Positions 232-34,900 of a stretch of DNA of 64,000 bases are shown here, one piece after another. Location of the stretch: positions 11,656,001 to 11,720,000 of the forward strand of contig JAGUCH010000001.1 in the NCBI GenBank assembly GCA_019096065.1, read 5' to 3'. The position numbers and the translations under genes were made by a program. The DNA comes from Paracyclopina nana (Eukaryota > Arthropoda > Copepoda > Cyclopoida > Cyclopettidae). The notes under the pieces are model-generated. The model was given only the letters and a program-made list of their open reading frames with translations, was not told where the DNA came from and ran no database searches. How positions within the stretch are numbered: position 1 is the stretch's first letter; the number at the start of each line of letters is the position of its first letter.

Positions 232-963
232 CTAATGAAAGTACAGCTTATGCATCTTGAGGGCTTGCGCAGTGACGCATTTCGTATCACAAAAGTCACA
301 ATTGGATTGATCAGATTCCTGATTTGCAATGATGGTTTCAATATCTCTTTTTGAAAGCTGTTTATCTATGTGATCACTTTCAATAAGGTCATCGTTTTCT
401 TTCAGCAATCGATTATTGAGGTTTGCGCAGATATGCTGTTTAAGGTGTCGATTCAGTTTGTAATGTCGTTTGCAAAAATCGCACTGGAATTTCCCCATGA
501 TTTTTTTCTTCGCTGTTGTCACTTGACATAGCGGTTTAGTTTTGCCACTTATTTCTTGAGCATGCTCCATACCCATATGGACAGCTAAATTCTTCTGCAG
601 ATTGAACTGCTTACCACACGTGTCACATTTAAAGGGCCTTTCGTGCGGGCAAGAAGCTAGGTCAGTTTTATTCCAAAAGACTTTGCCACAGGTGTCACAT
701 TTATGTTCCTTCTTCATGTGCATGACGAGGTGATCCGTTCTGGAGAATGTCTGGCCACACATGCCACATTTGCACCTTTTGAGGGCCTCATGCACAACTT
801 TCACGTGGCTGTCAAGGTGCCTTTTCAATAAAAAGTTCATGCCACAAAAGTCACATTTGAAAGGCATCAGATCGTCAAGGTGAATTGACTTGACATGTGA
901 CTGCAGAGCACTTTTTTTGGGAAAGCATTTGTTGCAGATTTGGCATTTGATAGTCGTTTCCAT
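232..963 (-). CDS. C2H2 zinc-finger protein, 243 aa
   Basis: A single-exon ORF from ATG to stop that encodes a zinc-finger protein, presumably a nuclear DNA-binding factor. Seven finger modules follow one another from residue 7 to the C-terminus, each beginning C-x2-C (CQIC, CDFC, CGMC, CDTC, CDTC, CDFC, CDFC). Most close with H-x3/4-H. The fourth finger is degenerate: after CDTCGKVF it runs into ASCPHERPFKC and lacks a normal second His. The sixth ends His...Cys. The usual TGEKP linkers are mostly absent. There is no recognisable effector domain, and no orthologue can be named from the sequence. It lies on the same strand as Eb1, downstream of it. Confidence 0.85.
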   Translation of the reverse strand: METTIKCQICNKCFPKKSALQSHVKSIHLDDLMPFKCDFCGMNFLLKRHLDSHVKVVHEALKRCKCGMCGQTFSRTDHLVMHMKKEHKCDTCGKVFWNKTDLASCPHERPFKCDTCGKQFNLQKNLAVHMGMEHAQEISGKTKPLCQVTTAKKKIMGKFQCDFCKRHYKLNRHLKQHICANLNNRLLKENDDLIESDHIDKQLSKRDIETIIANQESDQSNCDFCDTKCVTAQALKMHKLYFH

Positions 964-1482
964 CCTGACTTTAAAACCAACTCATTGAAAGCTCTAATGT
1001 ATTGTGCCACTGTGCTTTCCTTGCACTAAAATATTCCAACTGAGAAATAAGACTATTTTTTGTTGAGCGCTTGGTCAACAACAGGACTTAAGCTGAGAAA
1101 TCACCACGTTGAGAAATGGGGCTTTTTAAAAATGTGTTTTAAAAGGAAACGCGCGCAAATAATAAAATTGAGTAGCATTACTTTGAGACCTTTATTTATA
1201 ATTTCTTTTTCACGTGCGAAGATGATTTATTCGTGTTAACAACTGTAGTGTAGTAATTTTTCTCTTGCCCTTCCACAAGGACAAAACGTTATTCAGATTT
1301 GAAAGAGGACAAGAAGAAGCGCAATCAATGATAAATAGGAGGGATTTCTATCATTCAAATGTATCCATGTCTGATGCTGGTGTTTTCTGGTGGCGGCTGT
1401 TAATCGTTCATTCGTAAAATATATTCACAATGGATCAAGAATGGTAGAATGAAGGTGGAGAAGTCTTGACATCTCATCAGTT

Positions 1483-3161
1483 TTAATATTCCTCAATAGG
1501 CTGAGGTGGCAAATCGTCTCCCTCATCTTCTGGCACCGCGAATCCCTCCTAGAAGAGTGAAATCATCGTTAGCTCGACTGTGTAGACTACTCATGTGACT
1601 TTTTTAGAAAGCGCGTAAATTATTTAATTCCTCACATGAAAAGAGCTAAAGAGAAGAGAGGGCCTCTTTAATCCTGAAGGTCCTCAACCTCCTCCTAAGT
1701 TAATAAACAAAAATTAATTTTTCTCACAGAAACAAAGTACCCTAGAATGCCTAATTTTGATAAGCAACTCTTCATATAAAAGTACAGCACTTGAGCATTG
1801 AATTTACCTCTGTAGCATAAAGCACCCCAAGGACTTTTTGGCAAAACTCCCCAACTCCGTCTTGGGTCTCGTATTCTTGCGCCAAAACTTCAATGTCCCT
1901 CAGCTTTCCAAAGTAGAAATCTCTCTCTTTCTCCAGGCCCTCAATCGTGAGATTCTTTTCCAACACTTGGGCGTTTAACTCGTCCACTTGGGCAGCAGAT
2001 GCGCTGCCAAGGCCACCCACGGGTCGGGCCCTAGGGGCTGCTGGCACACGGTTATTAGCTGATTCGAAGAAAAGAAGGTGCATGTAATAAATAGTGCAAT
2101 CAAAATATGTAAATAGAAATTGAAGGAAACTAAAATAGGGTAAGATCCAGGACAGGAGAAGAGAAATAGCAAGTCGTATTTACCAGGTGCAGGTCTAGAA
2201 ACTCTACTGGCAGCCGGCCTTGAGGCTGTAGGCATTCTACTATGTCCATTTGAGGGTGCTGCCATGGGCATTCTGGACCCAGAGCCGGTTCCGACTTCGA
2301 GGCCACCGCGTGCGGCCTCTGCGTCGTATTCCTGGCCCTGATAATTTGCATCAAAGAACTTTTTGAACCACTGCAAAAATTCAAAGTTGTCCTGGAACCG
2401 ACCCTTGATAAGCTTGTCCACTGGTACAATCTAAAAAAGAACATAAAGAGTGCAACTAAAAGCATAACTCTAGCATTAAATGTCCTCTTCAACTATAGGG
2501 AATTATTTAAGAGTGCAAAAAAACTAAGGATGTCATTTTTTTGCAAGACACCTTGATGGAATTGAGAAATCCTTCTTTGCGGGTAAACTGGAGCAGCAGC
2601 AGAGACTGACAAGTTATTATTGCTGCTGGTGTAATCGGGATCGATGCCGATTCTTTCTAGGGCCGAAATTGGGTCATAAGGGTGACCGTCATAGTTTGCA
2701 TCGAAAAACTTCTTGAACCACTGGATGAACTCGAAGTTGTCTTGAAACCGACCCTTGACCAAACGGTCCACAGGGATGATCTGAACGCCGGGGGTCTCAT
2801 ACTTAAATTCTATTGCTTAAAACTGCATGCTCACCTTATCAACACCCATCTTTTTAAATGCTGCTTGCAACACTTTGAAATTCTGGATATACTCGTGCTC
2901 CAACTTTGTTCTGAACTTGACTTTCTTCAGCTGAACGCAATCTGCAATGACAAGTACAATGATCAGTGCATGCTTAGAAAACGTAAAGATGTGATCCTTA
3001 CTTGGAAATAGCATGTCCATGAATTGGCAATATGCTGCTCCAGAGCAAAGCTCCTCGATTTTGGTGTACTTGGTCATTAGACAATCATTGACCCAGGCCA
3101 ACATTTCATGCCTTGACAGGTTGTCCGTTGTCACAGACGTGTTATACACATTGACCGCCAT
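1483..3161 (-). CDS. Eb1: EB1 microtubule plus-end tracking protein (MAPRE/RP-EB family)
   Basis: EB1 binds growing microtubule plus ends through an N-terminal calponin-homology (CH) domain and recruits partners through a C-terminal EB-homology coiled coil. Exons (minus): 3161-3002, 2941-2835, then either 2780-2552 or 2430-2184, then 2058-1808, then 1548-1483 (or 1694-1668). The CH part includes [16 protein letters not shown] and [18 protein letters not shown]. The EBH part has [17 protein letters not shown]. The main last exon ends PPQPIEEY, the family's CAP-Gly-binding EEY tail. All phases fit. Predicted lengths are 276 or 270 aa, against about 270 for the family. The start ATG opens [10 protein letters not shown], as in other EB1 proteins. 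The intron between exon 2 and the upstream copy of exon 3 is only 54 bp. Confidence 0.95.
1668..1694 (-). other. Eb1: Eb1 possible alternative last exon without EEY
   Basis: Behind an acceptor with a T-rich tract (TTTATTAACTTAG), phase 0 reads EEVEDLQD and then a TAA stop. It lies between the common exon (ending 1808) and the EEY exon (starting 1548), and both are phase 0. Splicing here would give an acidic tail with no CAP-Gly-binding EEY. Only the sequence supports it, and a short ORF behind an AG can occur by chance. Confidence 0.5.
2184..2430 (-). other. Eb1: Eb1 alternative CH-domain exon, downstream copy
   Basis: A 247-nt exon with an AG acceptor before 2430 and a GT donor after 2184, in the same phases (0 in, 1 out) as the 2780-2552 copy. 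It encodes [18 protein letters not shown] and then a Gly/Ser/Arg/Pro-rich linker (about 45 residues). That linker is more basic and longer than in the other copy, so the two isoforms would differ mostly in the microtubule-proximal linker. Confidence 0.85.
2552..2780 (-). other. Eb1: Eb1 alternative CH-domain exon, upstream copy
   Basis: A 229-nt exon with an AG acceptor before position 2780 and a GT donor after 2552, entering in phase 0 and leaving in phase 1. It encodes [18 protein letters not shown] and then a linker ending in SQFHQ. It duplicates the 2430-2184 exon in its first ~35 codons and diverges in the linker. Because its length is not a multiple of three, it can be used only in place of the other copy and not together with it. 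Confidence 0.85.
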
Positions 3162-31965: not shown

Positions 31966-34900
31966 TCACATCATCTTGAAGCCGTTCATCGAGCTGTTGA
32001 ACATGAGGGCCTTGGAGGCCGCCGAGGCCGCCGAAGCCGCGGCAGCTGCGGCCTCTTCGCGGCCTCCAGAGGACGGAGACATCTGACTATAGCCATTGTG
32101 GAGGCCGTTGTACCCACTTAACCCGAACTGATTCGTCTTCACGGTGGGCGGGGTGTGAGGTGGGGTATCATTGCTGGATGATTGTACCCCATCGCTGTTG
32201 AGGCCGGGCGAGGCTGTCACGTGGCCGCCGGAGGCCGACGCGGAGGCCTGCAGAAACTGCTGAGGCTGCGAGGTGGGCGGCGGGGCCAAGCCCATGTAGC
32301 CCATGCCCAGCATGTTCCTGTGGTGGTTCAGCCTCATCATGGTGGGATCGACGAACTGGCTGAAGTTGTGGCCAGCCCACGAGGCCGCCGAGGCCCCGCC
32401 GAGGCCGTAGCCCGAGGAGTGAAGAGGCTGCTGGCCGTAAAGCTGGTGCTGACCCTGGTGATGCTGAGCCTGTTGCTGCTGCTGAGACGGCGGCGGGGTT
32501 TTGCAAACGGCCGTGTCGGCCAATGACCAGATCTTGGGCTTGGAGGGCGGGATTGGGATGCCCGCGGAGGAGTCGCCCACTTTGGAGTCGTGGAGGCCGC
32601 CTAAGTGGCCCAAGTGCCTGTGGTCAGTCTCATCTGCAACATGAGGCATGGTAAATAAACCGTGCGTGTCACGCGGGTTATTTGGTTGCATTCATGCTTC
32701 TATTTGGCGCTTAACCAGTCACATGACTTTGTGGCAAAAGGCTTTCCATAAAAGAGGGCCATGCGAGCAGCGCGATGTTTATCTTATTTTGATTCCCTAA
32801 TCCAGATGTGGATATGACGCTGAAATTCCTCTTTTGTCATTGAATCCTGAGCTGCCATTGATGTCAGGACGGCGTTATCCAATATTGGATGTGATTTATG
32901 ATAAATGGAGCCATGGAGTACTTAAAATAACTATATGGCTAGGGGCGTCATCCAAATAGTTGCAGCATGAAAAACCGTTTTTCCGCGCAAGCCACATACG
33001 TAGAAGCTACGGCTATCCAAGAAAAATTGCCGAATGCAATTGAAAGAAGTCACGCTATAATGTGCAAAGGCTGATGCGATTTTGCTCAGCTTGTAAGTGG
33101 TGGAAAACCCGAGAGTGCTCGCTTCGGGGCAAATTATATGCGCATGTCGGCACTTTGTCGCTACATAATAATATACACGGTGATATGGCCAACTCGCGCG
33201 CTCTTTTTTGGCCGATGTCAAACAAGCTGCGCTTGACTATCTCTTGGTCGTTGTCGAACACTCCAATCCTCAATTTGCAGATGCGAGAAGCGCCGCCCCG
33301 TGGCTAAGCCGCATAACGTGAACGGCGGTCGCGCGGACTCGCTTTCAAGCCTCGAGCTCGGTGCGGGTAAAAGCTCGCTGTGGCTAAACTTACCGTGCTT
33401 GTCGTCGTCGCGGTCCTTGTCGTCGTCGTCCGACACGTCCACGTCCTCGTCGTCCAATTTGTTCTTGGGCTCCCATGTCATCTTGTTCTCCTTTTTGAGG
33501 CGGCGCCGCGCGTTGGCGAACCAGGTACTCACCTAGGCGAACAGAAAGAGCGAAAATAGCCAGAGTTGCTGGGAAAAAGCCAAAAACCTTACTTGGGTCA
33601 AAGTCATCTTGGTGATAATTGCCAGCATGATTTTCTCTCCTTTTGTGGGATATGGATTCTTTTTGTGCTCATTCAGCCAAGCTTTGAGCGTCGCGGTCGA
33701 CTCGCGGGTGGCGTTTTTCCGACGCGAAGCAAGGTCATAACCGGTGCCGTACCTTGAATGGGAAAAAAACAATCATCACCGTGCTCCCTTTTAGGCCAGG
33801 GAAAAATTACCCGTAGGCTGCCAGACTGGGGTGGTCGTAACCCGCGTAATATCCTGTGGGCTGCAGTGCCGTGGCCTGCGACCACGCGTTCATTTCCGCC
33901 GGGGAACCCGCGGGCCCATCCTTGATTCCATATGGGTTGGCCTGCGGAGAAAACACCATCAATATACGGCGGAAGGAGCGGCAATGAGTGAATGGCGCGT
34001 GCTATGGCTTTACCCGCAACGCTTTCCTCATGGAGAAAAGATTCTCCTTTTGTCAGCTCATAGCAGCAATCTTCGATGCACGCAAAGCGCGCGGCCCTCT
34101 CTGATCGACGCTCCTACTTAACCAGTTACAAATGTAAACCATGTAAAACATTTTCCAATGGGCTTTACCCGCAAATCTCGCATGGCACCTCGCTCAGATA
34201 TGCCATTAGGGCTTTACCCGCACCTAACGTTTTCCCAGCCTTCCACGTTTTACCCAGTTGCTTGGCTTTACCCGCAAAGGAAAACTGGATAGAGCTTAGC
34301 TGACTTAGGGCCAAAACTTGCTTACAACAGTCAAAACACGGGAAAATGAGCGCATCAAGCGGGAAGATCAGCCAGTTTTCTTAGCTGAGCAGTTTCTTGG
34401 CTTTACCCACAAAGAAAAGCTAGTACAAAGAATCAACATTACAAAACACATAGGAAAACGTGAAATTCGACTAGTTTACAATTGCCGCTACTAGCAGCCA
34501 AAACCAAAAGAAAACGGAAAGCTTTTTCATTAGCTTACATGTTTCTTGGCTTTACCCGCAAAGAGTTGACATGCGGCCAAAACTCGCTGACAACCGCCAA
34601 AACACGAGAAACGGGAAAAACGAACGCGTCAAGCTCGGCCAGCTTTTTCAGCTTATCGCTTTCTTGGCTTTACCCGCCAAGAAATGCCAGCGAGAAGATG
34701 TGAAATAATGCCCAAAGTTGCTAAAAACAGCCAAAATGCGTAAGAAGCTCAATTAAATTGGGTGTTCAGCCAATCTACCCGTGAGAGAAAAGCTTCACAC
34801 GGTTTCCTGACTTTACCCGCAAAGAAAAATAAGAGTTGCTCAATAGCCAGGAACTGCGAAAAATGAGCCCAAATACGTAAATTCAGCTGGTTTGCTCGTA

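Follow-up and report, generated by a model that had tools for sequence, protein, structure and literature searches.

A tandemly duplicated third coding exon in a copepod Eb1 gene, predicted to be used one copy at a time and to give two linkers

EB1 recruits many other proteins to microtubule plus ends. In EB proteins, the basic linker contributes to microtubule binding and is targeted by kinases; it has usually been studied with engineered mutants or by comparison of paralogous genes. In vertebrates, EB variety comes from separate genes (MAPRE1-3), whose products EB1, EB2 and EB3 have similar heads and different linkers; of these, EB1 and EB3 were compared with the locus described here.

A second route to such variety is the tandem duplication of an exon. 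As described in the accessible text of two studies, tandem mutually exclusive exons are homologous neighbours of similar length and the same phase, with GT-AG splice sites (PMC3228551, PMC9741552). The earlier of these predicts such exons from a length difference of up to 20 amino acids, a shared splice-site type and reading frame, and a peptide homology score of at least 15%; on the fly X chromosome, the predictor features also occur in 90 of 16,180 other exons, which belong to 6 of 1705 genes (PMC3228551). A survey of duplicated exons counts such events in 154 fly genes and 214 human genes, reports that structured parts are conserved while disordered residues are generally poorly conserved, and gives three quarters of the resulting human isoforms as tissue-specific (PMC9741552). 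A comparable layout is described for the C-terminal CH domains of smoothelins, in which the first helices come from an earlier, constant exon and the later ones vary (PMC10643981).

Here we describe a candidate exon pair of this kind in the Eb1 gene of Paracyclopina nana, within a window (the whole stretch of DNA analysed) of 64,000 nucleotides. It resembles the smoothelin case in its constant early and variable late CH helices, and differs from it in gene family and in CH domain type. Eb1 is named in the main text of neither PMC3228551 nor PMC9741552, whose supplementary lists may include it. Among the literature matches listed, taken by title and the start of the abstract, none reported an Eb1 exon duplication; most subscription papers and transcript databases lay outside the scope of that search. 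A term search of the available text of PMC3303723 gave no mention of Eb1, the isoform passages found in PMC4159139 concern Kank, and in PMC13406575 the EB1 linker is not treated in 12 of the 21 places matched by term. In some species, an annotation of the pair may already exist. Events of this type are well known and common; the interest lies in the gene concerned, and the Eb1 pair is, on its sequence, a sound prediction.

The Eb1 gene and its exon pair

The minus strand from 3161 to 1483 is, as read from the DNA, a complete gene for an EB1-type protein, Eb1 (Table 1). Every junction of exons 1, 2, 3a, 3b and 4 has a GT donor and an AG acceptor, and the exon coordinates and phases given in the initial annotation were all correct. 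Spliced as 1-2-3a-4-5b, the predicted protein has 270 residues; as 1-2-3b-4-5b, it has 276. Two of the four possible forms (3a with 5b and 3b with 5a) were scanned against Pfam. Both contain an N-terminal CH domain (PF00307, 55.6 bits in each; cut-off 26) and a C-terminal EB1 motif (PF03271, 59.8 and 59.9 bits; cut-off 27), the combination by which the predicted protein is assigned to the EB1 family. The 3a form also aligned over nearly its full length with the human EB3 and EB1 chains. On the minus strand, an acceptor-like cttccag ends at 3173-3172, 10 nt ahead of the start codon, which makes an intron in the 5' UTR likely.

Table 1. Coding exons of Eb1 and a candidate cassette exon (positions within the window)
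Feature	Position	Strand	Basis and content
Coding exon 1	3161-3002	minus	ATG at 3161, GT donor; translation matches human EB1/EB3
Exon 2	2941-2835	minus	AG acceptor, GT donor, translation; ends after codon 89, phase 0
Exon 3a	2780-2552	minus	229 nt; last part of CH domain and linker of net charge -2 with RRIS stretch
Exon 3b	2430-2184	minus	247 nt; last part of CH domain and basic linker of net charge +2
Exon 4	2058-1808	minus	Splice sites, Pfam PF03271; common end of linker, coiled coil, EB1 motif
Candidate cassette exon 5a (in intron 4)	1694-1636	minus	AG acceptor, GT at end; coding 1694-1668 (EEVEDLQD)
Last coding exon 5b	1548-1483	minus	AG acceptor, 21-residue translation; ends EEY, then stop

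Residues from 90 onward are supplied by either 3a or 3b: first the last part of the CH domain, then the first part of the linker. Both exons are of the GT-AG type, enter in phase 0 and leave in phase 1. Their lengths both equal 1 modulo 3 and differ by six codons, so that the frame is kept with 3a alone or with 3b alone. It had been claimed from these lengths, neither of which is a multiple of three, that inclusion of both exons or of neither breaks the frame; counted on the translations, such mRNAs do reach early stops, after 181 residues with both exons and after 116 with neither.

Are the two exons truly homologous? When each exon peptide was searched by tblastn through the window with an E limit of 1, the hits were the exon itself and its partner (9.8e-20 and 9.1e-20 for the partner hits); a third copy was not found there at that limit. 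A 29-base degenerate pattern for a 10-residue peptide matched twice in the window and not at all in any of 100 shuffled windows. Chance likeness of 3a and 3b is excluded by these two results, which also uphold the earlier view that adjacent exons encode the same CH segment. Beyond the window, a pattern search for relatives of the Eb1 locus gave 192 matches in prokaryote contigs and 21 in viral contigs, none of them confirmed, and says nothing on other animals; the degenerate peptide pattern had no match in either set of contigs, which is likewise uninformative on animals. We regard the arrangement of the exon pair in the DNA as sound.

The pair fits the published features by which mutually exclusive exons are predicted (PMC3228551), at least as the available text sets them out: the six-codon difference lies well within 20 amino acids, splice-site type and reading frame are shared, and the global BLOSUM62 score of the two peptides is 0.40 and 0.38 of their self scores, a ratio that is our own calculation and not the output of the published program.

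Around Eb1, a proteasome subunit gene (PF00227) lies from 4989 on, on the plus strand, upstream of Eb1 and transcribed away from it; its product is probably beta 2. Downstream lies a 249-codon frame (232-981, minus strand) with stretches that look, by eye, like C2H2 zinc fingers. A further minus-strand frame at 31966-32691, where local GC is high (0.549 in 32001-34000), contains a 16-residue stretch by which it is presumably an Iroquois-type transcription factor; a 113-residue piece of it had no Pfam match. Scans of the window for tRNAs and for Rfam families gave no hits.

Constrained CH parts and diverged linkers

Over their first 35 codons, 3a and 3b differ at 29 of 105 nucleotides; the first, second and third codon positions account for 7, 2 and 20 of them, respectively. 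Synonymous differences are saturated (pS 0.86), against a dN of 0.17. Only seven residues differ (91 I/V, 95 R/K, 97 V/I, 108 I/L, 120 D/Q, 122 H/Q and 123 P/E), and the replacements are mostly conservative up to residue 108. When 29 changed sites were placed neutrally in 40,000 simulations, the mean number of changed residues was 18.5 and the minimum 11; none had seven or fewer. This control is a rough one, made without a tree or base composition, and its margin is wide. So few changed residues in the face of saturated synonymous sites indicate an old duplication, after which both copies stayed under selection as protein. Given such long selection on both copies, an assembly duplicate is untenable as the source of the pair.

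Against human EB1 and EB3, the CH part of 3a is identical at 30 of 35 residues in each case, and that of 3b at 28 and 27, respectively. Both copies have R100 where both human proteins have K100; this single shared site hints at a duplication later than the separation from vertebrates, or at sequence exchange between the copies. The positions that we take to contact the microtubule are kept, with K89 in exon 2 and R100 and Q102 in both copies.

Past residue 132, 3a and 3b have no clear likeness to one another, nor to human EB1 or EB3: in four comparisons, 76, 1314, 820 and 362 of 2000 shuffles scored at least as high. The first two of these values are those of the 3a linker with human EB1 and EB3, respectively, and with them the idea that this linker is ancestral by its likeness to human EB1 was rejected. 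From residue 120, the part encoded by 3a has three basic and five acidic residues (net -2), and that encoded by 3b has six and four (net +2); with the common linker of exon 4 the values become +1 and +5. In the segments of human EB1 and EB3 used for comparison, also from residue 120, the net charges are +3 and +5. The proposal that the two exons give different microtubule-proximal linkers is thus borne out. The title of the initial annotation laid its stress on the CH domain; a CH segment is indeed present in both exons, but it hardly changes between them, and the exchange concerns the linker.

Because basic EB linkers add to microtubule binding, the 3b form is expected to be the stronger microtubule binder. 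The RRIS stretch of the 3a linker presumably fits a basophilic kinase motif. The 3b linker (2325-2184, minus strand) carries the repeats SRMP, SRMP, SRP and SRVSRP, of which SRMP resembles the SxIP motif by which partners bind the EB1 C-terminus; whether Eb1 might bind itself through these repeats could be asked.

A linker free to drift could have produced the same divergence. Were that so, the exons would be mutually exclusive while the two proteins were equivalent, and the pair would do little beyond making EB1. The lack of clear similarity among the linkers is what such drift would give, and the poor conservation that is general for disordered residues of duplicated exons agrees with it, a conserved structured part next to a diverged disordered one being common to the Eb1 pair and the surveyed events (PMC9741552). 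The strong constraint kept on both CH parts argues against equivalence, as does the tissue specificity reported for most human isoforms of such events in the same survey. We consider equivalent proteins unlikely.

Splicing signals and the predicted use of the two exons

The donors of 3a (2552) and 3b (2184) have U1 duplex scores of -5.2 and -5.3, and each is the best U1-pairing GT beyond the CH core among the 8 and 9 scanned, respectively. They are weak beside those of exons 2 (-9.6) and 4 (-6.9), though equal to that of exon 1 (-5.2). Of the 20 nucleotides before the acceptor, 10 are pyrimidines for 3a, the lowest count of six scored, and 16 for 3b, the highest. This difference suggests that 3b would be the default exon and 3a the regulated one. 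The weak donors and the low pyrimidine share of 3a are also points that count against the productive use of both exons favoured below.

Could 3a make no protein at all? Its acceptor, the poorest of the six, and the early stop on joint inclusion are what one would expect if only 3b were productive and 3a were a silent copy or a poison exon, lowering Eb1 through nonsense-mediated decay when joined with 3b. Its CH part, however, has not decayed and stands closer to human EB1 and EB3 than that of 3b (30 of 35 in each case, against 28 and 27); no stop interrupts frame 0, and the phase at its donor is the one required by exon 4. A pure poison exon, moreover, has no need of a conserved protein. We thus hold a silent or poison 3a to be quite improbable. 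Still less credible, to the point of being very improbable, is a terminal form of 3a in which the donor is skipped and 19 more codons are read, up to the stop at 2495; the product would be a CH protein that lacks the coiled coil and is monomeric. The frame is open that far, but among the GT of that stretch the phase-matched donor at 2552 pairs best, and in a minus-strand scan from 2600 down to 1, no AATAAA or ATTAAA occurs between 2600 and 1673.

If both exons are used, what would enforce their exclusivity? The intron ahead of 3a is 54 nt long, and that between 3a and 3b, at 121 nt, is not too short to splice. Nor was there an excess of docking and selector pairing in the three intron pairs examined, since 72, 53 and 124 of 300 shuffles paired as well or better; a model of competing RNA pairing was rejected on this ground. 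Because the stops at 181 and 116 residues precede the final junction, transcripts that carry both exons or neither should be degraded, and removal of frame-broken mRNAs would be the simplest answer. From the frame it follows that mRNAs with both exons or with neither would be unproductive, but not that splicing of 3a to 3b never occurs. As a prediction, mutually exclusive use, as originally put forward, is well supported by the anatomy, the phases and the selection on both copies.

Splicing may also touch the tail. The GT at the end of candidate exon 5a has a U1 score of -5.0, and the GC content of the exon is 0.458, against 0.283 and 0.368 in its flanks. Its inclusion would give Eb1 a tail ending in EEVEDLQD and lacking EEY, which is uncertain: a coding test needs more than its eight codons, and the exon remains a lead. 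CAP-Gly domains bind the EEY/F tails of EB1 proteins, according to the available part of PMC3583065. Two linkers combined with two tails (EEY, or none via 5a) would yield four EB proteins, with microtubule affinity and CAP-Gly recruitment set independently by splicing and a single Eb1 gene acting as a small EB family; we put this forward as a tentative and rather doubtful reading.

A probable source of two linkers in one EB gene

The explanation that we favour, and consider probable from the sequence features above, is that the third coding exon of Eb1 was duplicated in tandem long ago and that each productive mRNA carries one of the two exons, hence two linkers. Both 3a and 3b would stem from that duplication; each would now be spliced in some tissue or stage, with 3b, which has the stronger acceptor, as the default form and 3a as the regulated one, and mRNAs with both or neither would be cleared by nonsense-mediated decay. 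Both proteins would keep a working microtubule-binding head and carry different linkers. The basic Ser-Arg/Pro arm of the 3b form should add electrostatic microtubule binding, whereas the near-neutral arm of the 3a form, with its RRIS stretch, should have a weaker hold on the lattice or be open to switching; this functional difference draws on general knowledge of EB proteins.

Like vertebrate EB1, EB2 and EB3, the two Eb1 forms would thus combine similar heads with different linkers. Where vertebrates obtain this variety from separate genes, a single gene would here supply it through exon choice. If this is true, two linkers that occur naturally on a protein otherwise the same would offer a clean test of the role of the linker, and the animal would be tuning plus-end tracking through the choice of an exon.
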